DNA from: Lophium mytilinum
Taxonomy: Eukaryota; Ascomycota; Dothideomycetes; Mytilinidiales; Mytilinidiaceae
DNA length: 64,000 nt
Assembly (NCBI GenBank): GCA_010093605.1
Contig: MU004181.1
Location: 186,001-250,000 of the forward strand
Direction of reading: 5' to 3'
Position numbers and translations under genes: made by a program. The notes under the pieces are model-generated. The model had not been told where the DNA came from and did no database searches. It saw only the letters and a program-made list of their open reading frames with translations. This document shows positions 6,293 to 62,862 of the stretch, in pieces (within the stretch, counting starts at the first letter, position 1; every line of letters starts with the position of its first letter).

Positions 6293-6610
6293 GAAAACAT
6301 CATGCTCACCCTCCATGTCTAGTCGATTGATGGCGGTATTGGTGGAACCGACATGGTGCTTATCTATCAGGTCGCACTCGCTGTTCTTGTAGAATGTCGC
6401 ACATCCATCAGCCCACTTTGCTTCTTTTTCTGCCATCGTCCTCGCTCTCGACTTGGGCCAGAAAACTCCAATGTAGTCGGTATGCGCCAGTGAGGAGTAA
6501 AGACAGATGTCGTAAGATCCTAGGTCAAATTCCTGGAGACACACGATATCGGCATTCCGTTCTCGGAGTTCTGCTAGAGTGACTTCTTCCGGTGATCCGA
6601 GGATAGTGCG
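6293..6610 (-). pseudogene. CCR4-type deadenylase fragment, copy a
   Basis: CCR4 is the exonuclease/endonuclease/phosphatase-fold catalytic subunit of the CCR4-NOT mRNA deadenylase, in cytoplasm and nucleus. The minus strand encodes the family's first catalytic block: LRERNADIVCLQEFD, containing the metal-binding glutamate of CLQE, then YIGVFWPKSRARTMAEKEAK, then DGCATFYKNS, and an NTAINRLDMEGEHDVF block. Length is about 105 residues out of a catalytic domain of more than 300. At the low-coordinate end homology stops right after EHDVF and the frame continues into unrelated sequence. The last 55 bp overlap the start of copy b near 40.0 kb at roughly 85 percent identity by eye, so these are two copies and not two halves of one. 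Confidence 0.8.
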
Positions 6611-6646
6611 CGTGAAGGCGTGTACCTAGATTGGGCCTACGTAGCG

Positions 6647-6690
6647 TGCTTGTTACCGGGCGTATCGTTGCTTGTTACCGGGCGTATCGT
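6647..6690. repeat. 22-bp exact tandem duplication
   Basis: The unit tgcttgttaccgggcgtatc plus gt occurs twice in direct succession (6,647-6,668 and 6,669-6,690). It lies at the upstream border of the CCR4 fragment. Confidence 0.85.
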
Positions 6691-7370
6691 AAGTTAGAGC
6701 CGTGAACGTTTCTTGGCCAGCCCTTGGGCTTCCTTGTCCGAGTGAGAGCCGGTAGGTTCTGGGGCGGACAAGTTGCTCGGCCATGACATTGTCGTGACCG
6801 CTTGGCTTCATATCCCACTAGGTACGGCAGAAATTGCGTAAGGGGCGTTGGTGGCGTTGATGAAGTCTGCATTTCCGAGAGAGGCTCGAGGAAGCGAATG
6901 ATTCTCCAAAGGTCGTCGTGTCCCCTCGGTGAGGCGCAGTAGTATCCAGCAGTGAAGAGGGCCAGTGCCCAGAATGTGAAAAGCACGAGTGTCCGGCACG
7001 TGAGGAGAAAAGAGAGGCTGTCGTCCGTCTCGGTCGCGTGCATATACGGCACTGGCTTAGAGGCATCTAAGAACCTCAGCAGATTAGAACGTGCCGTGGA
7101 AGAGCGGAGTGGGTGACTTGCCGTACGCGGTTCATGTTGACCTCTGCTTCTCGCCGAAGTTTTCCTCGTCTTCGCCGGTAGTGTTTTCGCGACGTTCTTG
7201 TTGCGACCGTAGAATCTGACCACATTTCTGCCGCGGAAGAAGGGCTTGAGGTAATTAGCAGCACTTCGACGTGAAGTAGACGTTGTAGATAGGTTGGAGG
7301 GCGGATGATGTTTCGGGTCGGTCGGCGGCACAACGGGGTTGACACTTGTTCTCACCCAGGTTTGTATCAC
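6675..7370 (-). CDS. Open frame with one membrane segment, uncertain
   Basis: A 231-codon open frame without an ATG at its upstream end; the first in-frame methionines are internal. About residues 118-145 form one strongly hydrophobic segment (LVLFTFWALALFTAGYYCA) that could span a membrane; the rest is basic and of low complexity. It lies between the CCR4 and pyruvate kinase fragments on the same strand. I do not recognise it. Given the decayed surroundings it may be chance or a relic. Confidence 0.2.
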   Translation of the reverse strand: MIQTWVRTSVNPVVPPTDPKHHPPSNLSTTSTSRRSAANYLKPFFRGRNVVRFYGRNKNVAKTLPAKTRKTSARSRGQHEPRTASHPLRSSTARSNLLRFLDASKPVPYMHATETDDSLSFLLTCRTLVLFTFWALALFTAGYYCASPRGHDDLWRIIRFLEPLSEMQTSSTPPTPLTQFLPYLVGYEAKRSRQCHGRATCPPQNLPALTRTRKPKGWPRNVHGSNLRYAR

Positions 7371-7429
7371 GAGACCTCACTGAGCGGAACGCTATCTTCT
7401 CTGACATTTGCTATCTACTTCAGATCGAT

Positions 7430-8736
7430 AACCCCTCAAACTCCTCCTTGATTGCTTTGATGCGAGTCCACTTCTCCATGATAGGGTAGACTGGACAGTA
7501 CTTGGAGACTAGACGGATGGTGTTCTCGCTAATAAAAGTTAGCTCTGGATGCTGTGACATGTCACTCTATTAGAACGTGACTTACCTAGTGGTCAGGACT
7601 AAGATGGCACCAGCATTCTGCTCCAGGCTGGCACTGACAGCAGCCATAGCGCAGGTCTCGGTAGTAGGAGCAGGCACAGGGACGACCTCCTCAGCTCAGG
7701 AAAGGGAGATATCCACTTCGGCGGGCAAACAGGTCTTGTGCACCATGGTGACATCCTCGGCCCGCGAACCAACTGTGTATTCCCACCACACGTTTGAGAT
7801 TCCATCAATCCCACCCCAGATAAACTCCACAATCATCCCAGGTAATTGCCCTTGGTGGCCTCGCCTGACAGTATAGCGCAGTCGGTCTGCACCGTTCAAC
7901 ATGACGATTCCTGCCTCGCTCTCTTCAGCACGGGTGGGGCGGGGCTTGTAAGTTATACTCTTCAGGATCTCAGTGGCGCAGATAGCGGGCTTGCCGGCGA
8001 TGTTGCACTTAGTAATCATCCTCTTCTGTGCGATTAAGATCTGGCTTGGAGGAATGTCGATACCGAGATCACCACAGGCGATCATGACGCCAAACGAAAC
8101 CAGAGTGTCCGCAGTGTCGTTTGCCTTCGTCCTCAACACGTCGGGCTACTTATCGTTGAGGTACCACAGGCCGATGAAACTGTTCACACTGACGTGAGTC
8201 AAGTTGAACGGAGGTGCATCCGGGTGAGTCTCGAAGTCCTTCACATGTTCGTGGACGGCCCTCACTACATGTCAGCAGTAGTACCTAGATCCGGTTTCTA
8301 TCGCCTCACTTTTGATTCTCGAAGTCGCACTGGCACTTGGGTAGGTGGAAAAGAGTTTCGGTGGCTTCGAGCGACTCTTTGACCTTCGCCTTGTCTGGCA
8401 CGTTGACATCGAGGGAGAAGAAGTCAAGGAAACGGACCACAAGCGCTGGCTTCCTGGGAATGTTGGGTTGGGACATGTCGTTAGGCTTCTGTTTGGATAA
8501 ACGATGATAGTAGGATGTGCGCATGCAAAAACGGCAGCTTGGGCGGAGCCTTGGCAGTGTTGAGACGGCCAGCGAAGAGATCGTCTTGCAAAGCATCGGC
8601 AGTAAGATAAGCGTTCGCAAAGCCAGCAGCAAGGTTCTCGTCGAAGTTGTTGACTCACTCCCTGCTGGCTCTTGATCTTGGCAATGATCTGGATGTCCTT
8701 GCCCTCTTCGCCCAGGACCTCGACGATGTTGAACAA
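7430..8736 (-). pseudogene. Pyruvate kinase pseudogene, interrupted
   Basis: Pyruvate kinase makes pyruvate and ATP from phosphoenolpyruvate and ADP in the cytosol. The minus strand shows EVLGEEGKDIQIIAKIKSQQ (about 8,730-8,660), a shift, NNFDE, and then about 500 bp of unrelated coding-like sequence. Homology resumes at about 8,105 with [33 protein letters not shown] and RPTRAEESE, and continues through TCAMAAVSASLEQNAGAILV to RLVSKYCPVYPI. The invariant arginine of the ARGDLG loop is a cysteine. A phase-2 intron at about 7,529-7,588 (GTAAGT donor, GCTAAC branch point, TTAG acceptor) still joins VLTTS to ENTIRL in frame, so this is a DNA-level copy. The missing C-terminal exon type occurs on the plus strand at 62.7 kb. 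Confidence 0.88.
8140..8650 (-). other. Foreign coding-like insert inside pyruvate kinase
   Basis: Between the two pyruvate kinase parts lies about 500 bp whose minus-strand frames read like pieces of other proteins: AAGFANAYLTADALQDDLF near 8,620, VRFLDFFSLDVNVPDKAKVK near 8,420, and FETHPDAPPFNLTHVSVNSF near 8,230. The pieces are in different frames and do not belong to pyruvate kinase. I cannot name their sources. The placement suggests later insertion or a composite origin. Confidence 0.4.
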
Positions 8737-8869
8737 GATTTACTCCGGTACGGCTCTCAACGCAAGATGCACGGTAAGTGTCGCGGTCGTCACGGTCGCG
8801 GGGACCATCTCGGTTGCGGCCGCGGCGCACGCCATGGGGCTTGCATAGGTGCTTGTGCTCGAGGCAGGT

Positions 8870-9450
8870 AGCAAGTTGCTGGACGAAGACCGTCTGTCTG
8901 TCACGCTCGTCCACGGTCGGCATTGGCTCCGGGGTCTTCGTGCAGCGCTTAGGGCTCTCGTCGCAGGATCCACATCGTCCGTATTTGCCTCCACGGTAGG
9001 AGTTGCGGAAACCATCTTTATCTCGGCCGCGGCGCATACCACGGGGCTGATAATGGCGATCTGGGATCTTGAGCGGGTTCGGCGATGTCCACCTCGACAC
9101 TAGTCACCGCGTCTGTCGTCAGGGCGACAAGGGAACCTAGATCTGTGTCTGTGGTGCTGTAAGTCCCTACTCCTGTCACTGTCCGGGGCGTCCATTATCT
9201 CGACGTCGTCATCTTCCTTCTGGATTCTCGTGCGGCTACGATTGCGACGATGGTCTCGATCGCGGTCGTGGGCACGGGCACAACCCCAGTCAGTGTCGAC
9301 CGGAACTTGTATCCAGGCTTCCATCTCAGATCTGGTCGCCTTTTTGGTGGCGGTCTGCTTGGCTCTACATCCATAGGTGTCGAAAGACATACAGTAAATC
9401 CCCCGCACGTGCAGCCCATATCCGTCGTTCGCTCGAGACAAGAGAAGAGG
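8870..9450 (-). pseudogene. RBM39/Rsd1-type splicing factor, N-terminal fragment
   Basis: RBM39 (Rsd1, Pad-1 in fungi) is a nuclear SR-like splicing factor with an RS/RD-rich head, two RRMs and a C-terminal U2AF-homology motif. The minus strand reads an arginine/aspartate head (RDRDHRRNRSRTRIQK), then DDDVEIMDAPDSDRSRD, a frame change, NSYRGGKYGR, and PTVDERDRQTVFVQQLA. The last phrase is the start of RRM1 including its RNP2-like strand, where homology ends. The order matches the family. At least one frame change and the loss of both RRMs make it a fragment. A 30-nt stretch (9,228-9,257) recurs at 44,076-44,105 with one mismatch, and the family's C-terminal domain recurs at 40.3-40.6 kb. Confidence 0.75.
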
Positions 9451-11272
9451 AGATCGTTGTCCATGTGGAAGGTAGTTGCCCAGCTGGCTAGGGCTTGTGA
9501 TGGACTATTGTAGTGAGGAGTTGAAAGAGGCGGGTTGACATCACTAGCGATATCTTGTGTGGGTTACCATGTTAGTACGTTTGGACAGGAAATCTAAAGA
9601 CGGCGGTGAGGTCACTCACCTTACTCAACAAGAGTCAAACCTCGAGCGGCGCGAGTGGGTGCGTCGTAGGAGTCGGGACGTTCGATGTAGAGGCGCTCGA
9701 AGTTCCGGAGGAGAATCAGGTCTTTGCACGTCCTAAGCAGCGGCAATTGTCATTGTCAGTGTCTTTCTCAGGTCGCGGGAAGATACTCCTGGGTAGCTTG
9801 TCGGTCTGTGGGCTTCGTGGGGCAGCGAGGATGTCGAACGCCAGGAAGAGAAGGTGATGGAGTGGGTGAAGCGAGGAATGAGGAGCTAGGTGAGGCGGCC
9901 GCCGGGGCGGTTCTGGATAGCACGCTGGGCATGGAAAAGTGGCACTGCGAGCGGTCCGTCTTCCTCAGTCGTGTGTCGACGAAATGCGTAAAATCAAGGG
10001 AGATATGGTTGCAGAGCGGGAGAAGTAAACGATAGAAAGTGAGAGGCCGATAAAAGCAAACGAAAAGATGAAGAAAGACGTCAATGAGGCATAGATAGAT
10101 TAGGATTGCTTACGGACTGAGCGCAACGGCGCTAGCGCCACCGTTGAAGCACTTAAGGCGCAGCGAACGGTTGTTGATGAGGAGGGACTAGTACTCTCCC
10201 ACACGATATCTAAAAGATGTGGGAATACTCCTAGAAAGAATTGCATTAAAGAAAAGCCGAGAAGGCCGCCACACGGTCGCAGCTCTTGAGTGGTATAGCA
10301 GATGTTTGTACACGACTGTCAGCGATATTACGGACGACATCATCATCGGATGGTAATCTTATAGAACAAGGCGAACACTACGAACGGTCCCCGCATAGCT
10401 AAGCTGCAGAGGATACACGAGCAGTATTCGAATCGACTTTGGTAAAACTCCTCAACCTTATCTATTACACTCAGACAATTGATCCTGTTCCACTCTCTCG
10501 TCTGTCTCTTTACAGTCTATGGCGATCAGGTATTCTCTTAAATCACGGAACTTGTAAGAGCGGCTATACCACCAAATGTCTTGCACGATGCGCTAGTAAG
10601 ATTGCTTAGAGAAGAAAAGCCCGAGTTTGATGTAATATTCCGCACCTAGCTAGAAAAAATGTAAAAGGAGTTGTTTCAAGGAATCACGGATCCGTTCAAG
10701 CTTATGGTACGCTAAGGGGCCTCTACGAGTTTCCCGGTAGCTTAAAGCTAAGAGTTTCTTTCTCATTAATATTTTCGAAAGTGCATTGAAGCAATATAAA
10801 TAGCGGCAAACAGGTAAACAAAGGCATTCGGGAGATAAGATAGTCGGCACATATAGCAAGCATTCCATCTCGTGCATTCCTGCATGCACCTCTACGTTAC
10901 TGCTTGAGTTGCTTCCACAACTTTGCACATCACATAAAAGTACAGGTTGCCACCTCGTTGATATTGTTTGGGATGTATTGAGACACTATAAACAGCGTCA
11001 GAGATGTATATAGAATGCAAGAGAAAAGCTGCAGTATTGACACATTGATAATCATTGGCGAACTAGATTAGAAATGCTACACTAACGAGGTATAAGATCC
11101 AGTATCTAGGCTCAATCCTTTGAGGAGCTCATGATCCAAACTGAAGTCCTACGAGGAGAAGCTCAGACCTTGTGAACCCTCTCCATGTCCTACCTCCGAA
11201 ATACGCAGCATAGGCGCTGAACACTATCCCACGCGCCTTGAGACCGTCTGTCCTGAACCTTTCGCTCGCCAA
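9451..11272. other. Intergenic, no supportable gene
   Basis: Frames near 9,600-10,035 are open on both strands but carry no recognisable motif, and the minus-strand frame at 10,650-10,928 has no ATG. From 10,040 to 11,270 nothing coding is visible. The part just below 11,272 would hold the 3' end of the F-box-like gene A. Confidence 0.4.
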
Positions 11273-12514
11273 CTACGCCACGTTGAGGCGACTTTCCGCT
11301 TCCTCGACCAGCTTGTTGATCTGCGCATTGACCACTGCGTTGATCTCCTTGGCCGTAGCAGCAATGTCATCAAGCGAAAGTGGGATGGCGTCGCCCGCCT
11401 TGCCGCAGACTTGAGCCCGTCGAATTAACTCATGAAATCTCCTATAGCAACCGTTGGACTCAGCATCAAATATAAACGTGATGTTGCCTCTACGTTCCGC
11501 CCGGAGCGGCAGTAAGAGGTCTCTCTTGCACTTATAGAGAATCCAGCTAAAGATCTCAAGACACTTGTGGTTAAACAGATCTTGGCGATCGCCTGCTTGG
11601 TAGACGTAGCAAGAGCCATGGAACGTCGACCGACGCAGGCTGGATAAGCCCTTGAGGCTTATCATCATATTTTCCACGTCACCTCTGACCTCGGTGAGAG
11701 TGACAGAACGTATTTGGTCTAGGAACATCGACTCGGTCCGCAGCAAGGTGTCGATGAGGACGTCGCAGCTATCGAACTCGAACGTATTGTGGCGCCAGAA
11801 GTTCTTGTCGGCCATGTTGCGAAGCTTCTTGTTCACCAATCGAAGACACATGTAAGTTGTTATGCACTCCGAGTCAATCGAGTGATTTGCAATGACGAAG
11901 CGGGCGGGGTGGTTGCTGCGAGTTCCGGTGGAGCTATACATAATCACGTCTCCACCTCCTCCGACGGATATATAGATGACTTCATGCAGGAGCTCGTTGG
12001 GTAGAGTTAGTAAAAGACATGGCTCCTTGTTGTCCTTACTGGCGTCCGAATTGTCATACTTATTATCGACCTTGTCCTCTTTTCCGGTGTTGCGTCCGTC
12101 CTCGTGTAGAGTGATCGTCTCTGCATCTGACGTTTTGTCGCCAACTGTTTTGTTGCCTACATTATCTGCAATCTCTCTATAATCTGCAGTCTCTATATTA
12201 TCTGCATCCTGTGCATTATCTGCGCCGAGTCCGGAGCTAAATGCATCTTTCCGAAGGGAGGTGACAGCGTGAGCTGACCCCGTCGCATCCTTCAACTCTA
12301 GACCATTGAAAATGGCGTTTACATTTCCATCTGGCACGTCTTTCCTATTGTCGCTAGGGATCGTACCTAAATCTTGGATGTTTTCCTTGCCAATGGCCGA
12401 CACCTCCTCGTAAGCTCCCTTCGAAAGTCCCCCATTCTTCGGCAACTCTTTGACTAAATGCTGAATGTTCTTGACGGGAGGCAAAAGAGAGAATCCAACA
12501 TCTCCATGCTGCAC
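11273..12514 (-). CDS. F-box-like protein A (5'-truncated)
   Basis: The frame is about 413 codons. A hydrophilic, acidic first part (residues 1-160; GNKTVGDKTSD, KVDNKYDNSDASKDNK) is followed by an F-box-like helix at about 166-182 (LLLTLPNELLHEVI) with VGGGGDVI. Then come TYMCLRLVNKKLRNMADKNF, a YVYQAGDRQDLF block shared with paralogue B, and the family tail RRAQVCGK..PLSLDDI. The frame has no in-frame ATG: it is open up to a TAG at about 12,565 and the upstream-most start-like codon is GTG. Paralogues have about 40 more basic residues at the N terminus. A CAG acceptor sits at 12,536-12,538, so a 5' exon may have been lost. The transposon's left target duplication is only about 150 bp upstream. 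Expected role: SCF substrate adaptor, by F-box analogy only. Confidence 0.75.
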   Translation of the reverse strand: MQHGDVGFSLLPPVKNIQHLVKELPKNGGLSKGAYEEVSAIGKENIQDLGTIPSDNRKDVPDGNVNAIFNGLELKDATGSAHAVTSLRKDAFSSGLGADNAQDADNIETADYREIADNVGNKTVGDKTSDAETITLHEDGRNTGKEDKVDNKYDNSDASKDNKEPCLLLTLPNELLHEVIYISVGGGGDVIMYSSTGTRSNHPARFVIANHSIDSECITTYMCLRLVNKKLRNMADKNFWRHNTFEFDSCDVLIDTLLRTESMFLDQIRSVTLTEVRGDVENMMISLKGLSSLRRSTFHGSCYVYQAGDRQDLFNHKCLEIFSWILYKCKRDLLLPLRAERRGNITFIFDAESNGCYRRFHELIRRAQVCGKAGDAIPLSLDDIAATAKEINAVVNAQINKLVEEAESRLNVA

Positions 12515-12705
12515 GGTCTGCTGGTGTCCATCATCCTGAACGTGCCGCTTTATAGCCGAGTCCTAAGTCATATTCTACTTCCCCAAGGGCGGGGTGGGGT
12601 TGCTAACCATATCGAGGTAGATTGGTGAGTGTAGTGTAGAGTTACTAGCTGTGTGTTAAGAGATGCCCTAAAGTGGGTTGTGGTGGATAGTTCAGGGCTA
12701 TGCGA

Positions 12706-25565: not shown

Positions 25566-26927
25566 CTACTCTTCAGCCGCTCCCTCTGCCTCGCTCGCCG
25601 CCTCGATGTTCGCGATCATGTTATTGCACCGCCGATTGATGGCAGCCGCTCGATCCTCTATCTGCTTCAACGAGAGCGGGACTTGGCCGGCCGCCTTTCC
25701 ACACAGCTGTGCTCGCCTCATCAGGTCGTGAAACCGGACGTTCCGGCCTTTGCACAATGCGTCGAAGACGATCTCGAAACGATTCTGCCCGTACGCTTCG
25801 CGAAGAGGCGTGAACAGCTTCTCCGTTCGGCCTTGCACCAAGTCTTCGAATAAGGATTGGCACTGCGCCTCGAACTGGTCCTGTGAATCTCCTGCTTCGT
25901 ACACGTATGAGCAGCCGGTAATCGTGAGCCGGCGCAGGCTGGAAAGTAACAGTAGGTAGTGGAGTAGGAACTCTGACGAGCCATCCACGACGTTTATGGT
26001 TACGCGCCGGATCTCGTGAACGAACTTAGGCTCCGTCCGGTCCAAGAAGTCGCACATCACGTAGCCAGTCCCGAATTGGAAGCCGTTAAGTCTCCAGAAG
26101 GATTCATCCACGATGTCTCTGATCTTCTTATTCGTGCATCGGAGTGTCATATATGAGGTGACGTACTCTCCACCAAAACTATGATCAGCGATAGCGAATC
26201 GGTTAGGCACGTTCACCTCATCGCCTTCGGTCGTTTCGATGATGACATCGCCTCCTACGCCGACTGCTTTGCTGAAGATGTCGATCAGAATCTCGGTCGG
26301 GAGATCGAGTAGGAGAAGGGGTTTCTTGTTCTCTTTATCTGCATCGGGGTCTTCTTTCCTGTCAACTTCCATTACAACCTCGTCCTCGTCGTCCAAGAAA
26401 ATGATGGTGCTGGCTTCCGATACATCGTCCCGGAGATCGTCGTTGACAGAAGACGTAGTGATGGTGGCAATGGCAGCTCTTGCGCAGACGTTCGTGTTGA
26501 CAATCAAATCCCCTTCGGATCGACTACCCGTACCGTCATCTTTAATCGAGCTAAGAGGTTCAAGCTGCATCGTACTCCTGAGGCTGATGGCACTGGCATC
26601 CACCAGATCTTCGACCTGTTCTCCAGCATCGACTTCCATATCCTCGTCTGACGAAATGGTGGAGTCCTCATTCTGGAAAGAGCCTGCAGCCAAGAGGTCA
26701 TCCGTGCCAGTATGTAGACCCAAGGTACCAACTTCCTTCGGAACCTTGGCCCTTTTCGATCGCATGACCAGGTGTTGGTTCACCGACCCCTGGGCAAGAC
26801 CGAAAGCTCGATTGGCTTTAAGCTCTAGCCTCTGTTGCTGTCGGGCTCGGTGAGCTTGCCGCTTCAAGCTTGACTTCTGGGCACCAGTCTTTCGCGAACG
26901 GGACGACCAAGGGTACGTGACAGCCAT
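25566..26927 (-). CDS. F-box-like protein B
   Basis: A single-exon frame of 453 codons; ATG in good context (AGAGAATGG). Residues 1-45 are basic (RSRKTGAQKSSLKRQAHRAR), possibly a nuclear signal. Residues 50-200 are acidic and Ser-rich (SDEDMEVDAGE, DDEDEVVMEVD). The F-box-like helix is at about 204-222 (LLDLPTEILIDIF) with VGVGGDV. Next are TSYMTLRCTNKKIRDIVDES, a leucine-rich stretch, YVYEAGDSQDQF, and the tail RRAQLCGKAAGQVPLSL. Closest relative in the window is A, by the shared YVYxAGDxQDxF block and tail. Divergent from C with 419 bp between starts, and a TATATAAG-type box about 130 bp upstream. Probable role: adaptor of an SCF-type ubiquitin ligase; substrate unknown. No lesion seen. 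Confidence 0.85.
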   Translation of the reverse strand: MAVTYPWSSRSRKTGAQKSSLKRQAHRARQQQRLELKANRAFGLAQGSVNQHLVMRSKRAKVPKEVGTLGLHTGTDDLLAAGSFQNEDSTISSDEDMEVDAGEQVEDLVDASAISLRSTMQLEPLSSIKDDGTGSRSEGDLIVNTNVCARAAIATITTSSVNDDLRDDVSEASTIIFLDDEDEVVMEVDRKEDPDADKENKKPLLLLDLPTEILIDIFSKAVGVGGDVIIETTEGDEVNVPNRFAIADHSFGGEYVTSYMTLRCTNKKIRDIVDESFWRLNGFQFGTGYVMCDFLDRTEPKFVHEIRRVTINVVDGSSEFLLHYLLLLSSLRRLTITGCSYVYEAGDSQDQFEAQCQSLFEDLVQGRTEKLFTPLREAYGQNRFEIVFDALCKGRNVRFHDLMRRAQLCGKAAGQVPLSLKQIEDRAAAINRRCNNMIANIEAASEAEGAAEE

Positions 26928-27052
26928 TCTCTTGAATTGGACTGTCGAGATTTGTAGTTGATAAAGAAAGTGTTGAGTGGGCGAAGAAGGTGTGTGGTGG
27001 TGTCTCGTGGATATTTTGGAGGGAGGTTGTGGCAGGAACGATCTATCAGAGT

Positions 27053-27218
27053 CTTATATGGGTAAGGTATTAGGGAAGAAACGGCCAAGCTTTCGCCAAA
27101 AGAGAGAACCGAAGCCTCCTAGCATTCACGTTGTAGTCGCGCTGTGGCTCCATAGCCGGCGACAACTCCGTGAAACCTGACATTCACGTTCAGCTGGAAA
27201 ACCTCCCGAACATATAAG
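27053..27218. promoter_or_regulatory. Divergent promoter between B and C
   Basis: The 419 bp between the two start codons contain a minus-strand CATATAAGAC (about 27,052-27,059, about 130 bp before B's ATG) and a plus-strand CATATAAGGT (27,211-27,220, about 134 bp before C's ATG). Both are followed by C/A/T-rich leaders typical of fungal 5' UTRs. Confidence 0.55.
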
Positions 27219-27346
27219 GTTGCTCGTTCACATTCTTTTCTTCCTCTTCAACCACCCCACCGCAACCAGAATCTGCTCTACTCCCCCATTGTATCACCAC
27301 CTCTTCACCAATTTCATCCACCTCCTCACAACCGAACTGTTCAACC

Positions 27347-39671: not shown

Positions 39672-40075
39672 AGTTGAAATCGCCGCACATGATCAGCGGG
39701 ACTTGAGAACCACTGGAATATTCCATCGATGGGGCGGGCTCTTGGGGGGTTTCTTCTGGATCATCTTCGCCGTCTTCGTTGGTGAACCTGTATAACACCT
39801 TGTCTGTGCACGCCGGCCATTTCGCATACTTTTCAGCGAGCTTCGTGATTTGCTCCATAAGAATTGCAACCTGGACTACTTTGACGTTTACGAAAACTTC
39901 GTTCCAGAAAATGTGTGCGTTACTGAAGATCGAACGTGGTTCCAGTCGCGCGGTTTTCCAGGAATATTATGACGGCGATGTCATCTCGAGGCATTACCCG
40001 GTTGAAAACGTCATGCTCACGCTTCATGTCTGGTCAGTTGATGGCAGTATTGGCGAAATCAACAAGACGATCAAA
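39672..40075 (-). pseudogene. CCR4-type deadenylase fragment, copy b
   Basis: The minus strand continues the CCR4 catalytic domain from where copy a (6.3-6.6 kb) overlaps it: RLVDFANTAIN, a stop, PDMKREHDVFNRVMPRDDIA, VIIFLENRATGT, a frame change, NAHIFWNEVFVNVKVVQVAI, LMEQITKLAEKYAKWPACTD, and PLIMCGDFNS. The last is the catalytic D-x-N motif of the exonuclease/endonuclease/phosphatase fold. After GDFNS the frame leaves the family (PPPRPEMDYKSTYHED) and reaches a GTACGTGAG donor. The first CCR4 exon here abuts an acceptor (GCTAACTCGGGAAGACAG, about 40,081-40,098). At least two lesions. Together copies a and b cover much of the catalytic domain, but they are separate, overlapping copies. Confidence 0.82.
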
Positions 40076-40103
40076 CGTGCTCCAGTCGCGCTGTCTTCCC
40101 GAG

Positions 40104-40607: not shown

Positions 40608-41099
40608 TGGAGCTGGGACCCGAGTGGCCGGTCGACAGTTGACTTGTGGTGGCTTGCGTTCGTTATTGGCGGGCTGGGGATCATCGGCCCCCGCAAAAGA
40701 AACAAACTTTGACGCGCATACCTGGGAGGGAAAAGCTATACGAAGTCAGTGAGGATGAGGTGAGGATGAGGTGAAGACGTACTGAGGAAGGAGTGATGTA
40801 GGAGAGACGGAGGTTGGAGGGGCGGAGCTGGCTTTTGTAGTGTGCGGCCAGCTCGCTTACGTGAAGTCCCGTGAGGCCCACTTTACTCGGCAAGGCGCTT
40901 TGCCGAGCTCTAGGCCGCTCGCGCCGGTAGCGATAAGGGCTCGGCATGGGTTCTAGCCGTTGTGCGGTCAGTATGGTGTGGCTACAGTTTTCCTGGCCTT
41001 TTGGTGAGCATTTCTTATCATCGCCATCTAGTCGTATAGAGCGAGCATGAAGCATTCGGTATGCAAAAGCCATGTCATTCTCCAGGCCTTGGTAAGGTC

Positions 41100-41705: not shown

Positions 41706-42293
41706 CTAATCGAAGACAAGCTCAGAGGGTAGATACTGCTCGAAGTCATCTAGGCAAAGAACGGAAGATTCGGCGCCGCAGCACTGCGGGTGGTACTTGG
41801 ATGCGTCGGTAAGTGCAAGACGGAACACTTGCTCGAGACACGCGCCGCACATCGAGTGCTCGCCGCAACCAGTCTCCCGGAGAGGCGTGTCTTCTACCTT
41901 GTCTGTCCTGGCGACTCCGCACGCAACCCCGGACCGATCCATCATGCTGGAGGCAGTGTGTTGCTGAGTTCTTCACTGTGGTGAAGACATGGTGGTGGAA
42001 CGATAAGGTTAATGGCAGTCGGGGTGGTACCGGTTATGTCCTTCACCTCACCCGCTTTCAGCATTCCGTGTTCTGGGGAGGGTGGCTGTGCGGAGTGAGT
42101 TGCGGTTTCGGGCCTTGGGTGAGGAACTCGAAAGACTGGTGAGGATCTCCCTTGCACATTCGTCGAAGTTCTGCTTGCTGAACTGAGGCTTCTCCTCCAT
42201 ACGTCGTTCAAGTTCGTCCTTGTTCCGCACAGACTTTGTGGCGTGCGTGCGACTCCCGATGAGCTTCCTCCGACGTGCAATCCGACTCTTCAT
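41706..42293 (-). pseudogene. RBR-type E3 ligase fragment (first RING)
   Basis: From ATG 41,945 the minus strand reads VARTDKVEDTPLRETGCGEH, SMCGACLEQVFRLALTD, ASKYHPQCC, and LDDFEQYLPSELV. This is the pattern of RING1 of fungal RING-between-RING ubiquitin ligases (CGH..C..CL..LF..A..D.S.FPPrCC). Upstream, 42,293-42,048 gives a charged frame (KNDELERR-type helices) that may belong to the same gene. The first RING cysteine pair is incomplete, and IBR and RING2 are missing since the frame ends at 41,706. Ubiquitin transfer by RBR enzymes needs the RING2 cysteine, so this piece cannot be active. Confidence 0.55.
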
Positions 42294-43400: not shown

Positions 43401-43404
43401 ACTC

Positions 43405-43715
43405 ACACCAGCCTCAGAGAGTACCGAATAGAGAAGCTTCTCCTTCAGCGCACTCTCGTCCTTGCAGATGGGAAGTTTCAACAGGTTCTCGCAGGTGCTA
43501 GTGCTCGGCAGCCTCTCCTTGTCGCCGCCCGCGTCTCGAATACTGAGCGGTGGGTGGAGCGTGCCGAATCCTAGCAGAGGTGATCGTGGGGTTGGAGTGA
43601 CGAGTTTCAGCACAGCGCGTCGTTCCCCGTCGTTGAACTGCTCCATGACACGGCAGAAAAGATCAATGGTTGGGTGGCCGAGACTATCATCGCCGCGCTG
43701 GTGGACGCCTCTACC
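43405..43715 (-). pseudogene. HECT E3 ubiquitin ligase C-lobe fragment (Hul5/UBE3C-like)
   Basis: The minus strand shows HPTIDLFCRVMEQFNDGERR, AVLKLVTPTPRSPLLGFGTL, HPPLSIRDAGGDKERLPSTS, and TCENLLKLPICKDESALKEK, then LLYSVLSEAG. This is the end of a HECT domain: the 'LPsasTC.n.LkLP.Y' box holds the catalytic cysteine, which is kept, and the spacing is right. The final residues after SEAG are replaced by unrelated sequence (VSIMEMVVIIA), so the C-terminal phenylalanine region is lost. No upstream N-lobe is found; before HPTI the frame reads QVATINPIVGGRG. The IRDAG insert and TPRxPLLGF favour the Hul5/UBE3C group; other HECT families are possible. Confidence 0.78.
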
Positions 43716-44075
43716 ACCCACTATGGGGTTGATAGTGGCGACCTGGGGACATCGTGCGTTCCTGGTCCAGGTCAGTGCTGCGAAAACGAAAACTGCCGAT
43801 TTTGATACCTTCGAAGCTTGTGTAGTCAGAACTCCGATATCCATGACCCTACTATCTATGCCTGATGCTCGATTCTCCGCCGTCCAGCTCCGTTGTCATC
43901 TCTATGTTCCGGCTTTGAAGACGTCGCAGGTGCGAAAGCGTGGCGGAGGAGGAAGCTGGGTCGCGAGCGCGCCGATGTCTTGCTCGAGAATACTGGCCAC
44001 GATGATGCCCGTCTTTGCTCTGGTCGCTTCTGAGAGCGTTGGTCATCGCGAAATCTTCAACCTTTTTCTTGATCT

Positions 44076-44105
44076 TCGTGCGGCTACGATCGCGACGATG
44101 GTCTC
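44076..44105 (-). pseudogene. Short RBM39 RD-head fragment
   Basis: Thirty bases match 9,228-9,257 with one mismatch, and the minus strand encodes the same RDHRRDRSRTK-type head before diverging (KKKVEDF). Being Arg/Asp-rich it is of low complexity, but the DNA-level match favours shared origin. Confidence 0.45.
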
Positions 44106-44523
44106 TGGAGGAAAAGAGCGGCCTCCAAGTCTTTGGACGTCCGAGTTGTAATTTGTAGAGGAGGTTTCAGAGAGAGGTAGGAGGGTGGAGGTGGTGGGAA
44201 TTCGAGAATGTGGAGAGAAGGATACCGAGGTGCAGAGCGGAAGAACTAAAGTTGAGGACGAAGGTGGGGAGGGCCTCGGTTAGGTCCAGATTGGTGCTCT
44301 GCCGGGGATATCGACCGAGACGGTAGAGTCTTCATCAAGTTAGGCATCGACGCTTTCTGATCTTTAATGGAGGATGATTCCACTGGAGGACGCAAGCTGG
44401 GATTTTGGGGTTCTTGGTGCGGCAGACGCTATCACTGTAACTACTCATTTAGGGATTCAAACGGTCGAACGAGCAATCTCTATCATAATCAAGCTCCAAA
44501 TTTAAGCTGGGGAGTTCACATAG

Positions 44524-45999: not shown

Positions 46000-46960
46000 T
46001 CGAGACTTCCACGTTCGGCCATGGTAGCGGATGCAATAGCCTCGCCACCCGGTCCCGTCGTCTCTAGAGAATTCCGCTGTCCTTTGCTTCAAGACAAACC
46101 CAACACGTTGTTCCTCCAGATCATCGGCACCCAGGTCTCCTACGACGACGTGGTCCACTGCCATCTTCATTCGGCCCATCTGGACCATCTTTTCTTCGGC
46201 ACTGGCACGGAGCACAAAGTCGAAGCCCATGTTCTTCTCGATCTGGCTGCGGTCAAGAAGCTTGTCGATGGCGGCGTCGTCGTCGTGCTTCAGGACAGGC
46301 CCCACATCGCGTTCTCCCATATCATCGGCATCCAGCTGTCGGCGTATCCCAGCGCCTCATGAGTATCCGTGCTCTTTAGCCCCTTTATCTCCCGAATCTC
46401 TGCAGCCGAGTAGTTGACTAGCGCGCGACCAACCTCTTTAGGCGCCGGACTGTGTTGCTCCCACGTTACCGTTGCTGCTGCGAATGAGTGGTGGGCGAGG
46501 GGTGCAGGGACGAAGTAGAAGTAGGCGTAGAGGTTTTCTATGACGACGTGGTCCAGCGCCATCTTCCGCTTTGGCGCTCGCACGGATCCTAAACCGAGAG
46601 CCCATGGTATTCTCAATCTGGCTGCGGTCAAGAAGCTTGTCGATGGCGGCGTCGTCGCAGCGAATGGCGTGGTCGGTGCCGTCATCCTTGAAAAGCTCTG
46701 CATTCCCGTGCTTCAATGCGACAAACTCGACCAGGCGACTCCCCATATCATCGGCATCTAGCTGTTCTGCGATGATGCAATCCAGGGCTAAGGTCTTTGA
46801 ACCATTTTTTCTTCGGCGCTGGCACAGATCATGAACTGGAAGCAGAGCCTTCTGCTGTCCGATACCGTGAGCTCAAGACCTGACATTGATATCCTGAGGT
46901 GGGTTGACGTCTGGGCGGAGGATGATGACGGTGTCTGCGCTGGCAAGGTTGATACCTACT
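46000..46960 (-). pseudogene. CHD-type chromatin remodeller fragment with tandem copies
   Basis: At 46,960-46,740 the minus strand reads SADTVIILRPDVNPPQDINV, AHGIGQQK, and SAEEKMVQ. This is the end of the SNF2 helicase C domain, where 'SRAHRIGQ' is motif VI; here its key arginine is changed and a stop precedes it. Next comes the CHD-specific linker: LKHGNAELFKDDGTD, DDAAIDKLLDRSQIENTMG. That linker is repeated: RASAEEKMVQMGRMKMAVDH, VVVGDLGADD and DDAAIDKLLDRSQIEKNMG recur at 46,320-46,050, with a partial copy and an unrelated insert (EVGRALVNYSAAEIREIKGL) between. So three decayed tandem copies of one segment remain. Such ATPases move nucleosomes; this remnant cannot. Confidence 0.72.
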
Positions 46961-47385
46961 CCGCCAGCCGGTGTCAGTTCGAGCTATATAAGGAGCCGCG
47001 GGAAGAACTCCTTGCTGGTGGCATTGAGGAATAACGGCCTGAGGGCAGTTGCGCCCGCTCCTGTCGGGACTCGCGCTGTGAGCCTAGGACGCGTTGTTGC
47101 TGCAAGCCCGAAGCTTTCTCGCAGTAGTCTACACGAACAAACTCCTGGTGGCCGCAATTGCCGTGGAAAAATGGCTATAGTAGCACATACTGATGCAAAT
47201 GCCCGCTCGAGTGCACAATAGGAAGGCGAAGAGCGGCGAACCTGGTCCATTCAACTTATCGATGCGCATTTCCTTTCTCGAAAGACCGAATACTTCCATC
47301 AAGTCGTTCGTACTGCATCCCATAGCCGTCGAGGAAGTCTTCCATAATATCGAGCATGTCGAGAAACTAGCTGAAGACGGGTACC

Positions 47386-47435
47386 CTATGCCCTCGTTCC
47401 TTCACTTGGCCTATGCCCTCGTTCCTTCACTTGGC
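47386..47435. repeat. 25-bp exact tandem duplication
   Basis: Unit ctatgccctcgttccttcac plus ttggc, copies at 47,386-47,410 and 47,411-47,435. Confidence 0.85.
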
Positions 47436-47667
47436 AGCAGTAGATTTAGGAGCTGGAGTTTCGCGGATGCTTCCACTAGGTCGCGGCAAGAGACGGTAGC
47501 AATATCTCCCGTACTGTCGTTCCGAGCCTAACACCAAACGAAGCAAGCAACATTGTAGTGCTTAACGGCGGTGACAGAAGGGTCAATTCAAAAATCGTCG
47601 TTGGCCAGGCGGATGAGGTCCCGGTCCAGTTCTTCCTCGAGATTCTGGTGCCAGTCAGTGGTTTCGG

Positions 47668-48280
47668 TCAGCATGCCGCCTGTCCCAAGTGCTGAACCAG
47701 CGCTAGAGACGTCCGCTTTGAGATCTTCAATATTCTCTACGACTTCTATGGCGTGGCCATCTGGGTTTGATCGGGGGTTCTTGTCGTAGAGGCAGTCAAC
47801 GTCCGTCATCAAGACTAGGTAGTCAGCGTGGACCATGCCGGCGGTGATGGCAGAAAGAGTGTCGTTGTCGCCAAACTTGAGCTCCGTGACGGCGAGAGTA
47901 GCAATGCGCTAAACTTGATATCCGTGACGGCGAGAGGATCCTTGTCGCCACACTTGATCTCCGTGACGGCGAGAGTATCATTCTCGTTGACGATTGGGAT
48001 AACGTTCAATCCAAATAGCGCGGCGAACGTCGCCTGGGCATTCTGGTACTGAGTGCGGTCTGCGATGTCGTTGCGGGTCAACAGAATCTGAGCTACTGGT
48101 TGGTCCCGTTCGTTGAATAGTCTGTCCCATTGACTCATGAGCCGACATTGGCCAATCGCTGCGATCGCTTGAACTTTGGGGAGGTATTTTGGTCTACGAT
48201 CCAGGTTCATTCGTCGTAGGCCGGTCCCAATGGCGCCGGAGGAGACAAGTACGACTTTACGGCCATCGCGCTGCAGTCCA
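47668..48280 (-). pseudogene. Glutamate 5-kinase fragment
   Basis: Glutamate 5-kinase (yeast Pro1) makes glutamyl phosphate, the first step of proline synthesis, in the cytosol. The minus strand gives [80 protein letters not shown], a disturbed part, then [39 protein letters not shown] and [12 protein letters not shown]. The order matches the family's amino-acid kinase domain, including the VSSGAIG loop. The disturbed part comes from a threefold repeat of about 26 bp that triplicates the VTEIKFGD-coding segment and shifts the frame. The N terminus, the end of the kinase domain and the PUA domain are missing; after GTGGM the frame is foreign. Confidence 0.87.
47873..47975. repeat. Threefold 25-26-bp repeat inside glutamate 5-kinase
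   Basis: acttga(g/t)(c/a)tccgtgacgg plus cgagag occurs at 47,873-47,898, 47,911-47,936 and 47,951-47,975, separated by 12-14 bp. An intact gene would have one copy. Confidence 0.8.
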
Positions 48281-48469
48281 GACGCACCCAAGCGTCTCTG
48301 GGTTTGGGCCAGAGTCGGCCCAAACTTTTGGTGGCACTCTAAACTTGTGGGTCGTCCAACCCTAGGGTGAACAGCCTATAGCTCTCGCGAGCTTTGCTAG
48401 GCGTCACGGTTCGGGGGGACACTCCACAGGGCTCTCGTGCTCTTCCACTGGGCGTCGGTGCGAGCGTGG

Positions 48470-48797
48470 CGGCGAAGGGACCATCCAGGCCATCTCGAAG
48501 TCGCGGTCGATGATTGCGCACTCCATCGGCTTGATGCCGACAGGATCCGCATTGATACCAAGGACAGAAGCACCCTCGCACGGAGCAGGATACACACGAC
48601 CGGTAAACTCAGAAAATTTATTCGTCATGAGAAGGCGGTTCAGCGCGTCCTTCCACTGGTCCTGGAAGCCGAGCTCGTTCCACTTCGGGATGATGTTGCT
48701 GATAGGACATGCAAAGTCAGACTGGCAGAAGGGTACACCGTAGTCTGAAACTTGACTTCATCCTCGTGGAGGCGCGTTGAAAGCTCGGTCCAGTCTC
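48470..48797 (-). pseudogene. Glutamate synthase (NADH-GOGAT) small-domain fragment
   Basis: GOGAT makes two glutamates from glutamine and 2-oxoglutarate. The minus strand reads [19 protein letters not shown], then in the next frame [84 protein letters not shown]. This is the start of the beta-like (GltD) domain, with the Cys-rich iron-sulphur loop before CPISN and CPAPCEG (here YPAPCEG, one cysteine changed). A frame change lies at the '[13 protein letters not shown]' position and two iron-sulphur cysteines are lost. The following FAD-binding GxGxxG is absent. About 110 of more than 2,000 residues remain. Confidence 0.85.
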
Positions 48798-49299
48798 AAG
48801 TTTCGGGATGCGACACTTCTCTGTGCGCCGCTGGTACTTTCACGATCAGGATCTTCGCTCCCAGCTTCTTGACGGGAGTGGACGAGGCTCCAGACATCTT
48901 GAGCGTTGACTTGCGATAGAACGAAACAGGAAGACAGGAGGAATTTATACGCATCGGAATCCCAGTGCGTAGGCGCCTGCGTCCTTGACCATCTGCTGGA
49001 GCTTGCGCTCAAAGCTGGACGTCGTCTCGATTGTTACCATACTGGAGAACATCTGGCTAATGACCGCAGCATCTGGCACATTCCTATATCGCAGTCATTT
49101 GTATTGACTTCGCTCACGTTTCCAGGATCCAGGGACGGGAGCCGTCGGGGTCATATCATCAAGGGATTGTCCATATTGGGCCTGGGTAGTTAGGAGCTCT
49201 TGGTCGACAGCGCCGGGTTCTCTGGAGATCTCGTCGTCGAAGTCGAAATCGAGGTCGAGATCGTCATCCGGATCAACAGCAGCATTGGACAAGTTCGTC

Positions 49300-49445
49300 G
49301 TAGAATCTGCTGCTGGAAGGTCATGATCTCCTCGAATGAACGCCGGCCTGTCCTCCAGTAGACTAACAGGAAGCCCTCGCCGGTACGCATGTAGTGCTCC
49401 CGTATGGTCGAGCACTCCTCCTGGCGCCAGCAGCATTCGTAGTCA
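49300..49445 (-). pseudogene. Ras-type small GTPase fragment
   Basis: The minus strand reads [43 protein letters not shown]. This is the Ras switch II region (usually [28 protein letters not shown]) through helix 3. The glutamine corresponding to Ras Gln61 is present, but the preceding DTAG is not readable. Homology stops after QQILR, where a canonical Ras would go on to the NKxD motif; here an acidic foreign frame ([17 protein letters not shown]) follows. About 45 residues remain. Confidence 0.82.
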
Positions 49446-50259: not shown

Positions 50260-50445
50260 ATCCTCTCCACCGGAAGAGTCGACGAGCACATCGATCTGTC
50301 CATAGTGCTCCTTGATGTCTTTGACGGCACCAGCGATCTAGGTTTAGTCACGGATGTTGACCTGGTAGAATCGCACATCCATCCACACCACTCTGGGCGG
50401 AGAGCTCTTCCAGCCGCGACACCGATGCGTACGAGTCGTAAAACG
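50260..50445 (-). pseudogene. Short-chain dehydrogenase middle fragment
   Basis: In two frames the minus strand gives YDSYASVSRLEELSAQSG, then DVRFYQVNIRD, two stops, then IAGAVKDIKEHYGQIDVLVD, SSG. In this family the segment after the Rossmann fold reads 'kFYQvdv.d...v...v..i...fGkIDvlVnnAG'; the NAG motif is here DSSG. It would follow the N-terminal Rossmann piece found at 40.15-40.33 kb in a complete enzyme. Whether both come from one gene is unknown. It starts right at an acceptor (TATTCAG). Confidence 0.65.
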
Positions 50446-50508: not shown

Positions 50509-50706
50509 GCTGGGGCTGTTCATGAGCGGGTGTTTGACATTGAAGTTGTCAGGGTCCTGGAATACGGTGACCGGGGCATCGTTGACGGTGTCGGCACTTC
50601 CATTGCTCTTGGAGTTATCAGAGCCGATGGTGGACTTGTCTCCATCGGGGGAGATGGGGATGGTGTCGAGCGGGACCGGCTGCTGAGCACATGCGACTTC
50701 AGCCAT
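50509..50706 (-). pseudogene. eIF4E first exon, joined to a dehydrogenase piece
   Basis: eIF4E binds the mRNA cap. ATG 50,706 (context AACATGGCT) opens MAEVACAQQP, an acidic/Ser spacer, and DAPVTVFQDPDNFNVKHPLM, N. The last phrase is the conserved start of fungal eIF4E's folded domain, normally followed by WTLWFTKP. Here NSPS is followed by a GTGAGT donor (50,503-50,508) and, after a 63-bp intron (acceptor TATTCAG at 50,446-50,452), by a short-chain dehydrogenase piece. The 66-codon exon keeps frame with or without splicing until a stop at VNIRD. None of the cap-binding tryptophans are present. Confidence 0.75.
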
Positions 50707-51136
50707 GTTGAGGCTTTTCGAAAGGCGGTAAATTACTCGCTACATCATCCTGCATGCTCCACGGTCGCAGCCAGGTCGGGATGGTTCGCTAGTGTGCATA
50801 CCAATTGACGTGACTGTGCAACGTTGCACTTGCGGCCAATCTGCACGACCACCTTCTTGTACAGCAATGCGCCATTCCGCTCGTGGAGCCTACGCGGAAT
50901 CGGGTTCCAAGGAGTCGAGGCGGCGTCGGGTGATGGGAAATCGGGCGCGGTGCATGGTTCCAGGGAGAGGGGCCCACAGCAGGGAATTGGCGGAAGCATG
51001 GATGACAAGAAGAAGGATGAGAAAGCTAGATGGGCGGAAGTAGGATCTGTCTGGAGCCCTCCTGCATTCGGCCAGGACCGTAGTCAGGATGTCTCGCAGG
51101 TGGCCGGAAGGAGGATGGTGTCCCATGCCTAGCGGA

Positions 51137-51660
51137 TCAATTAGGGAGACGCCAACTGGGCTCTTCAACTACGGCGGCGCTGCAGACTCGGTGCGTAGCG
51201 GAACCTGCATCCTGCGATAAACGACGGGAGAAACGGAGCGTTGTGATCTTCTTTGCCGCGGCCTTTCCGACGAGGAGGAACTTGCGCATCGTAGGAGTAA
51301 GGCGCTCAATCAAGGCCTGGTCTAGTAGCGTGACGACCTTCTTGATGTCTTCGAGCGGAGCTGCGACGGCGGCCGGCTGGCCCGAGGTCACCTTTTCGAC
51401 ACGCTTTCCATCTCCAAAGCTGACAACTGGAATTCGGTCAGCCGTGGCTGATTTTCCATCCTTGGGTTTATCACCTTCAGCCTTGCTGCCAATGTCGTTG
51501 TTGTCAGGACGTTTGGTGAAGCGCGGGATGGAGGTGCCGTAGCTCCGACTTCCTCATCAATAGGAGAGTTTGTGGCGAGATGATCGACAATGTTGAGTAG
51601 GATCTCTTCTGGAACTGCGTCTAGCGAGGCTGGAGCACGGTCTGGGTCCTAACAAGCTCG
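51137..51660 (-). pseudogene. F-box fragment plus unknown coding piece
   Basis: At 51,650-51,560 the minus strand reads PASLDAVPEEILLNIVDHLA, TNS, a classical F-box start (LP.Eil..I...L), unrelated in detail to the A-F family. From about 51,545 a second frame runs to 51,137 with DKPKDGKSATADRIPVVSFG, then PLEDIKKVVTLLDQALIERL, TPTMRKFLLVGKAAAKKITT, which I do not recognise. The two parts are in different frames. Confidence 0.45.
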
Positions 51661-61043: not shown

Positions 61044-61160
61044 TAGCACTCTTAGTCGTTCTTTGAGTGGAGGAACGGTGCATAGCACTCTTAGTCGTTC
61101 TTTGAGTGGAGGAACGGTGCATAGCACTCTTAGTCGTTCTTTGAGTGGAGGAACGGTGCA
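61044..61160. repeat. 39-bp repeat, three identical copies
   Basis: Unit begins tagcactcttagtcgttctt and ends ggaacggtgca; copies at 61,044-61,082, 61,083-61,121 and 61,122-61,160 are identical. Being 13 codons long it stays open in more than one frame: on the plus strand it repeats STLSRSLSGGTVH, on the minus strand MHRSSTQRTTKSA. Confidence 0.92.
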
Positions 61161-61230
61161 TCCAGGGACGCGAGTATGACGATGTCACAGCAGTACGCAC
61201 AGCTCTACTATCGTACATTTCGGCAGATGA

Positions 61231-61662
61231 ATGCGACATGTGTGCTACTCAAACGTTGTCCCAACACTTGGAATATTACTTGGCACTAACTGTCACAAAC
61301 TGCGGGCTATTGAAGACTGCACCGGCACGAGGCGGTGCTGCATGATTGAGGTTGAACAGTTCCTGGGCCTACAGGGTATAGAACACGACACCTTTCCGAG
61401 CTGGAGAGCTCAGCCTCTTTTTTTGCGCAAGGACACAGCATCTGTTCAGATCTTGATCAAGCCAGCTCTGGAGTACACGCTCCAACATCTCGGCGTCCGC
61501 AGCCAACATCTGGACCTTCACTTCGCGTGCAGCTATGCTGATATATGTCGCACTTGGGCATTCTGGAAAGACTGCACGGCTACAGTGTACGCAGGGCACG
61601 CGGCCCGACCTCGAAGGATCAGTGTAAAGAGGGAGCGAGGGTCAACCAGTTGTAGAAGTTGA
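61231..61662 (+). CDS. Hypothetical open frame
   Basis: ATG 61,231 opens 143 codons with several cysteines (CTGTRRCCMIEVEQFLGLQG) and a mixed alpha/beta composition; a Lys/Arg tail ends it. No family recognised. The antisense strand is open over part of the same bases, so confidence is low. Confidence 0.25.
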   Translation: MRHVCYSNVVPTLGILLGTNCHKLRAIEDCTGTRRCCMIEVEQFLGLQGIEHDTFPSWRAQPLFLRKDTASVQILIKPALEYTLQHLGVRSQHLDLHFACSYADICRTWAFWKDCTATVYAGHAARPRRISVKRERGSTSCRS

Positions 61663-62169
61663 TGAGCTAGCAAGTTGAGATTGTGACTGAGGGCTTAGAT
61701 TGATATACGTCAGGCTTGTGAACACGAGGATTTCCCTTCGCAATCCCGGGGTTTTGGTATCCTAGGTGCTCCAAGAGATAAATCCACAAGTGCTGTCTGA
61801 CGTCAAACGGGGGCGTATTTGGTGTTTTCAGTACCTATTGCGCCACCCTCCTCATTCGCTGGGTTTGAATGATCTGTGATTTTCAGCAGAGTTTGTATCA
61901 AGAACTGTACAACATAGTCTAAATGATGGTTCTTGTCGCCGTCCAGTTTATCCTCGCACGTGATCAAAAACGAGGTCCACCGCGAACATCATTGCCCACA
62001 CCATCGCCAGAATCGCTACCTCTCCACCTCCACCTCCACGCCCGACGATCTCTCCGCACACCTGCACGACACCCACGCCTCCAACTCCGTAATCTAGGTT
62101 TCCGATCGCGCTCTTCACGATGAGCGTTCTTTCAACCTGCCGCCAACACCTATGTTGATACTTCCCTCA

Positions 62170-62660
62170 GACTCGCATCAAACTCCCATTTTCCTAGGCC
62201 GTACGATGGACGGTATGAGCGTTATCAGTCCAGGTCAAGATCTAGGTCCCCCTACAGACATCCGACATGCCCCCATGGCGAGAAGCGACCCCGCGACTCC
62301 CACTCTTACCGCGACGAACACGAGTAGACAACCGCCGCTTTAGAGACTGTCGTCGCCAGTCGTTCGAATCGGACAGACACTTCGACTACGAGGGACGGGA
62401 GCGTGGTGGGGAGCTGGCCTAGGCACGGGTTTCGACTAAGCTGGCGGATGAGGAGCGCAAGACGCAAAGATGGGTCGATGATATGGCCACACGGAAACCT
62501 AACAACGTTGAGGACGAGAAAGCTGAAAAAGTTGAGGCTTCGACCAAAATGGCGACGATGCCTCCAATGTTTCATCTCATGAGGTTCTTGAAGCGGCACC
62601 TGCGCGAATTGGCCAGTCCAAATTCAACCCCGAAGAGAAACGATCAGCTCACACGACATA
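62170..62660 (+). pseudogene. RS-rich and charged coding remnants
   Basis: Plus-strand frames read RYERYQSRSRSRSPYRHPT (near 62,215-62,275) and then, in another frame, ERKTQRWVDDMATRKPNNVE and DEKAEKVEASTKMAT (near 62,455-62,565). The first is an SR-type head like those of splicing factors; the second a charged helix. They lie just upstream of the pyruvate kinase exon on the same strand. Source genes unknown. Confidence 0.3.
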
Positions 62661-62689
62661 TTTGACGGTGGCTTTATGAAGACTCTAGG

Positions 62690-62862
62690 GTATGAATTCA
62701 GCCCTGTCATCTCCTCAGAAAGTGCCGCTAACACAATCTTCTCAGTACTCCCATCTCTACCGTGGCGTGCATCCCTTCTACTTCCTGGAAGAGAAGACCG
62801 ACTTCAATACCGTGCCATGGCAAGAGGACGTCGACCGCCGCGTCTATCAGTTCCTCCAGTCA
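62690..62862 (+). pseudogene. Pyruvate kinase C-terminal exon
   Basis: After an intron-like stretch (GTATGA donor at 62,690, GCTAACAC branch point, TTCTCAG acceptor ending at 62,745) the plus strand reads [38 protein letters not shown], then stops. This is the pyruvate kinase segment that follows the 'CPIIMVTRN' strand, so it is the exon type missing from the minus-strand pseudogene at 7.4-8.7 kb. The last about 70 residues of the enzyme (the GWRGG activator loop) are absent. The fragment begins exactly at an exon border. Confidence 0.78.

Follow-up and report, generated by a model that had tools for sequence, protein, structure and literature searches.

In the 64,000-nt stretch of Lophium mytilinum DNA analyzed here (GenBank assembly GCA_010093605.1, contig MU004181.1, positions 186,001 to 250,000 of the forward strand; hereafter the window), two blocks, at about 6.2–9.6 kb and 38.7–51.7 kb and totaling ~16 kb, carry decayed partial gene copies. 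The pieces are fragmentary and disrupted, lie on one strand, in part retain introns and in part overlap or nest; they are free of repeat-induced point mutation (RIP) and lie beside a retroelement that was mutated by RIP. We tentatively favor the reading that the blocks are dead mosaics produced by template-switching synthesis on sense, unspliced single-stranded templates, and that the pieces evaded RIP mostly by being short.

Six-frame translations (stops read as X) were compared with Pfam and with the sequences of solved structures (PDB), and a parent gene was assigned by database match at E = 0.05 or better. The Pfam comparison covered the minus strand at 1–12.6 and 24.1–64 kb, the plus strand at 1–10 and 37–64 kb, and both strands at 13.7–23.7 kb; the PDB comparison covered the minus strand only, at 1–12.6, 38.5–53.5 and 53.3–64 kb. 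Ten parents were assigned in this way: pyruvate kinase, CCR4, RBM39, glutamate 5-kinase, glutamate synthase, Ras, HECT, CHD, SmD1 and, weakly, a short-chain dehydrogenase (SDR). An earlier note on this DNA had claimed pieces of at least twelve core genes over 56 kb (6293–62862). Its count stands for the genes with a database match, to which SmD1, absent from its list, is now added, while its RBR and eIF4E pieces were recognized by eye from translation only, as were F-box pieces outside the intact F-box cluster. Its extent does not stand, as fragments were found only in the two blocks: 13.0–24.3 kb is RIP-mutated and contains a retroelement, 11.3–12.6 and 24.4–36.7 kb hold F-box-like open reading frames (ORFs), and 51.7–64 kb showed no known family (Pfam on both strands, PDB on the minus strand only). 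No piece is full-length, as far as the matches show, and all recognized pieces lie on the minus strand, both in agreement with that note. Among the 19 pieces listed, 12 span less than 400 bases and 7 span 406–1412 bases (introns, inserts and duplications counted), and several are disrupted by frameshifts or in-frame stops and by internal tandem duplications.

In the small block, CCR4 nuclease fragment A (6326–6625) matched CNOT6 in PDB (E = 1.2e-11, at ~6326–6580) and Exo_endo_phos in Pfam (E = 1.1e-4). Pyruvate kinase fragment B (7440–8100; Pfam E = 4.7e-27 at 7573–8100) corresponds to residues 256–408 of 500 of the yeast enzyme (PDB) and holds one intron at 7529–7585 (GTAAGT..GCTAAC..TTAG), the exon beyond it being read by eye. 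Fragment A of the same gene (8628–8740) is frameshifted and was recognized by eye from its translation; it is preceded by an F-box-like start, read by eye, that an in-frame stop interrupts. Also by eye, fragments A and B come from almost neighboring parts of the protein and lie ~530 bases apart. The last piece (8800–9500, by eye) runs from the RBM39 RS domain to the start of RRM1 and contains a 47-nt stretch that is directly duplicated within it, the copies lying 207 nt apart.

The large block begins with a C-terminal fragment of SmD1 (38774–38914; PDB E = 6.7e-13) and a tentative F-box/LRR-like fragment (38950–39470, by eye) with an intron, 39421–39474, at its upstream side. CCR4 fragment B follows at 39600–40080 (PDB E = 0.0012 within 39541–39966) and shows an internal partial duplication by eye, so that both CCR4 pieces of the earlier note were matched. 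Next are an N-terminal SDR fragment (40195–40345, by eye; 54-nt intron at 40255–40308) and an RBM39 linker/RRM3 fragment (40345–40750; Pfam RBM39linker E = 0.0033, PDB RBM39 E = 0.0078 at 40359–40673; 48-nt intron at 40504–40551). A tentative RBR-type RING fragment (41709–41972, by eye) gave a weak match to zf-C3HC4 (Pfam E = 0.064), while the HECT C-lobe fragment (43401–43700, E3C-like) matched in Pfam (E = 3.5e-19) and to UBE3C in PDB (E = 1.8e-21 at 43401–43697). A second copy of the RBM39 RS domain lies at 43950–44110 (80% identity over 61 bases with 9197–9257 by blastn). Thus, three RBM39 pieces were found as the earlier note had listed, the linker/RRM3 piece by match and the two RS pieces on weaker grounds.

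A CHD helicase fragment occupies 46000–47411 (PDB CHD1 E = 6.5e-7 and CHD4 E = 4.4e-5 at 46612–47411), its C-terminal part being present in several partial direct copies (repeats D1–D3 and D7). The C-terminus of glutamate 5-kinase (~46310–46440; Pfam PUA E = 0.034) appears by eye to be nested among these copies, and a frameshifted fragment of the same gene, covering residues 44–225 of 376, lies at 47663–48282 (PDB E = 5.7e-27 and 4.9e-11) with a 39-bp tandem array inside it (47856–47986). Beyond it are fragments of glutamate synthase (48461–48775; PDB E = 7.5e-25, Pfam Fer4_20 E = 1.3e-6) and Ras (49265–49429; Pfam E = 1e-6, PDB R-Ras2 E = 4.2e-9). HECT, CHD, glutamate 5-kinase, glutamate synthase and Ras, all named in the earlier note, are therefore matched in Pfam and/or PDB. 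Its two SDR pieces fared less well, as the second (50263–50379) matched adh_short at E = 0.011, under the curated cut-off, and the other was seen by eye; the same applied to its two pyruvate kinase pieces, one matched and one read by eye. Tentative eIF4E N-terminal (50527–50710, by eye, without a Pfam match) and F-box-like (51391–51648, by eye) pieces end the block. In the gap that separates the glutamate 5-kinase piece from that of glutamate synthase lies a perfect hairpin (48300–48345) with a stem of 8 bp or more and a loop of 6, the count of such hairpins being at chance level.

Some pieces of the two blocks are copies of the same gene part. CCR4 fragment B at 40.0 kb overlaps fragment A at 6.3 kb (68% over 133 columns of a nucleotide alignment), and the RBM39 piece at 8800–9500 shares 73% identity over 96 columns with 43.9–44.2 kb. 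Because the CCR4 pieces and the RBM39 RS pieces overlap as distinct copies, they were probably taken separately. The CCR4 piece was also compared with viral and prokaryote collections and no relative was confirmed, as expected from collections that contain no fungi.

The orientation of the pieces was then counted by parent gene. At E ≤ 0.05, Pfam placed eight parents in the blocks on the minus strand (pyruvate kinase, CCR4, RBM39, glutamate 5-kinase, glutamate synthase, Ras, HECT and SDR) and none on the plus strand (two-sided sign probability 0.008); no Pfam parent-gene match at this threshold was found in any frame of the plus strand at 1–10 and 37–64 kb. The count omits CHD and SmD1, as the PDB search covered the minus strand only, and two matches outside the blocks, namely a low-complexity BSP_II match in an F-box ORF (35.8–36.2 kb, minus) and an F-box-like match in an intact minus-strand ORF. 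Introns were searched on both strands with one strict pattern (5′ site, branch site and 3′ site). At 38.7–44.2 kb, six were found on the minus strand and none on the plus strand, compared with a minus control of 0.7, and none of 100 shuffles reached six; the six include 40095–40147, a possible chance match given its overlap with the CCR4 alignment, and 40736–40782, which is tied to no gene. At least three pieces (pyruvate kinase, RBM39 and SDR) retain intron-like sequences, as the earlier note had said of several. The pieces thus differ from processed (spliced) retrocopies, in which introns are absent.

Consistently, a codon-usage score for which the six F-box ORFs served as the training set favored the minus strand in 46 of 62 recognized block windows and in 32 of 46 unrecognized ones (sign p = 0.011, Wilcoxon 5e-4), compared with 32 of 62 in the flanks, 31 of 63 at 54.5–64 kb and an intermediate 12 of 18 at 51.7–54.5 kb. 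The minus bias of the unrecognized windows indicates that this DNA, too, is probably in part sense-minus gene sequence.

The surroundings of the blocks differ from them in RIP. At 13.0–24.3 kb lies an AT-rich island, outside the mosaic, with a GC content of 0.263 and a composite RIP index of +1.63, compared with ~52% G+C in the window outside it. The minus strand of the island carries a Gypsy/Tf-type retroelement that is no longer intact (RT_RNaseH_2 E = 1.6e-16, RVT_1 E = 2.4e-8). With the island as positive control, the blocks showed no RIP signature (composite index −0.29 to −0.62), so they are not RIP-mutated repeats, and the claim that RIP had not made the pieces holds. Around the island are six uninterrupted single-exon F-box-like ORFs, on the minus strand at 11276–12562, 25569–27053, 32727–33878 and 34981–36693 and on the plus strand at 27218–28579 and 30510–31829. 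They share 27–37% amino acid identity with one another, and one of the four minus-strand ORFs, which were those scanned with Pfam, gave a weak F-box-like match (E = 0.009). Unlike the fragments, these six ORFs look alive.

In the favored reading, a growing DNA end would copy short stretches of many transcribed genes in succession, switching templates at short matches, and jump-backs would yield direct partial duplications. The separate, overlapping CCR4 and RBM39 copies, the nesting seen by eye and the ~5 bases shared at one junction (by eye, see below) fit such switching. The templates would be sense single strands that still held at least some of their introns; candidates are the displaced DNA strand at transcribed genes, or nascent pre-mRNA if a reverse transcriptase did the copying. 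Sense single strands copied by one growing end would account for both the introns and the orientation, whereas spliced retrocopies account for the orientation but not the introns. Point changes, frameshifts and small tandem duplications would later have degraded the pieces, which, being disrupted, are presumably without function. RIP may have hit the neighboring retroelement but spared the pieces because most of their matches to the parents were too short. A 400-base contiguous match has been invoked for the avoidance of RIP by one gene (PMC6710886).

Several observations weigh against this reading. Spliced RNA is the usual start of reverse transcription, and if several separate captures took place, another cause of the single orientation would be required. 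With 7 of 19 pieces longer than 400 bases, a 400-base limit of RIP alone is insufficient. Strict introns numbered one per strand in the small block and none on either strand at 46–51.7 kb, the remaining segments being within control. Poly(A) runs of at least 8 were absent from the minus strand outside the island and numbered four on the plus strand, and no target-site duplications were seen around the pieces, without a systematic search. Dispersed opposite-strand 12-mers across 6–11.2 and 37–64 kb numbered 76 vs. a control of 48 (maximum 58), the figures at 14 bases being 6 vs. 4. Further, local 11-mer direct repeats, which were in excess in the large block (23 vs. 3.1 expected) and the small block (5 vs. 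1.2), were so outside the blocks as well (15 vs. 1.9 at 51.7–64 kb and 10 vs. 2.2 in the F-box region), and are therefore non-specific. For the codon-usage test, we ourselves chose where the blocks end and which pieces count as recognized, by-eye pieces included. The identities and ends of the pieces derive from Pfam, PDB, translations read by eye and within-window comparison, not from the parent genes.

Orientation-blind DNA break repair, by microhomology-mediated break-induced replication or filler capture, might instead have pasted short double-stranded donor segments repeatedly, and we consider this possible though somewhat unlikely. It would explain the retained introns, the nested and overlapping pieces and the local duplications, and at one junction ~5 shared bases were seen by eye via the window's own CHD copy, the kinase side being deduced from the protein. 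However, it predicts both orientations, contrary to the Pfam count (8 vs. 0) and the introns at 38.7–44.2 kb (6 vs. 0), and local inverted 11-mer repeats were not in excess (2 vs. 2.0 expected in the large block and 0 vs. 0.4 in the small one). Of the capture or break-repair patching proposed in the earlier note, repeated capture of intron-bearing segments therefore stands, while patching blind to orientation does not agree with every recognized piece being on the minus strand.

A Helitron or other DNA transposon that captured and carried the fragments and has since lost its own genes and ends is unlikely. Multi-gene capture is typical of maize Helitrons (PMC2575219, PMC3288121), and 27 putative captures are given for Fusarium Helitrons (PMC5148889), whereas intact Pleurotus Helitrons are described as free of host gene fragments (PMC4289320). 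No Rep/helicase or transposase family appeared in the Pfam scans made, although non-autonomous forms lack Rep/helicase. A scan for a 3′ hairpin with CTRR, which detects canonical ends only, was at chance, with one match at stem 8 (0.4 expected per strand) and none at stem 7. The common end sequence at junctions that the earlier note had proposed to look for was not found, as no 12-mer occurred in more than three copies, and the three-copy 12-mers listed were local arrays, except one with a dispersed copy. Inverted pairs numbered 17 at 37–64 kb (20–28 nt, 71–90% complementary) and one at 5.5–13 kb; none of the 17 was seen bracketing a block, though old ends may have decayed. Telomere repeats were not found in the window.

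Still less probable is a decayed segmental duplication, that is, a formerly continuous block of neighboring genes that lost most of its sequence. The single strand of the recognized pieces and the order of some same-gene pieces (pyruvate kinase A then B) agree with it, but RBM39, CCR4 and SDR are present more than once, pieces of one gene are separated by ~33 kb, and those of CHD are interleaved with those of glutamate 5-kinase. Misassembly of normal exons, which the earlier note had set as what would overturn it, is very improbable: unlike normal exons of such genes, several of the pieces contain in-frame stops, frameshifts and tandem arrays within them, and the overlapping CCR4 and RBM39 copies diverge by 27–32%.

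Fungal mobile elements are known to capture genes in whole or in part (PMC3538342, PMC6710886, PMC5148889), with little capture of host genes reported for the fungal Helitrons studied (PMC4289320, PMC5148889). The chimeric retrogenes of Magnaporthe, formed by template jumps of a long interspersed nuclear element (LINE), resemble the blocks: they, too, come from a filamentous fungus and directly join copies of different transcripts, all in one transcriptional orientation (PMC2104539). However, 33 of them are bipartite and one tripartite, while the blocks draw on around twelve parent genes and retain introns; they have flanking direct repeats and, according to the authors, no microhomology, while no flanking repeats were seen around the blocks, without a systematic search, and the Pfam comparison detected no LINE family there. 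In Dothideomycetes, hAT elements have likewise copied a housekeeping gene, histone H3, into mobile DNA, in some cases with RIP and in others without it, RIP being present in Mycosphaerellaceae (PMC3538342, PMC6710886). There, one gene was captured as a transcript within terminal inverted repeats, and its copies were destroyed by RIP in Mycosphaerellaceae, in contrast to the many genes, the introns, the lack of detected ends and the un-RIPed pieces of the blocks. Maize Helitrons also place fragments of several genes side by side, but neither Helitron ends (canonical 3′ end scan) nor Rep/helicase were found in the blocks, and no usable statement on the orientation of Helitron-captured fragments was found in the literature examined. 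Templated insertions and chromoanasynthesis (PMC11724301, PMC13065848, PMC8421209) produce mosaics through serial template switching, as proposed for the blocks; those of yeast are very short templated inverted duplications, whereas the blocks have no local inverted-repeat excess. A fungal mosaic of this many genes was not found in the literature searched, which omits most subscription papers and was available in part.

RIP-bearing fungi are regarded as nearly closed to gene duplication. As a speculative and rather doubtful extension, a polymerase that switches templates at a fragile edge of heterochromatin might receive sense-strand copies, introns included, from transcribed genes and so produce one-way mosaics, with RIP acting as a length sieve passed mainly by short pieces; this would be a duplication route for gene fragments specific to such fungi. 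If true, a dense mosaic of short copies in one direction beside a RIPed element would represent a leak in the RIP defense that is set by length, and comparison with parents and other strains would make the direction and the template of fragment capture testable.

Outside the blocks, a region of ~9.5 kb (54.5–64 kb) is without a known protein family and has codon usage without strand bias. Within it, a 39-bp unit occurs three times in tandem (61044–61161), and, in the large block, a 25-bp unit occurs twice at 47385–47435; the copies are 100% identical in both cases, indicating recent small tandem duplication.

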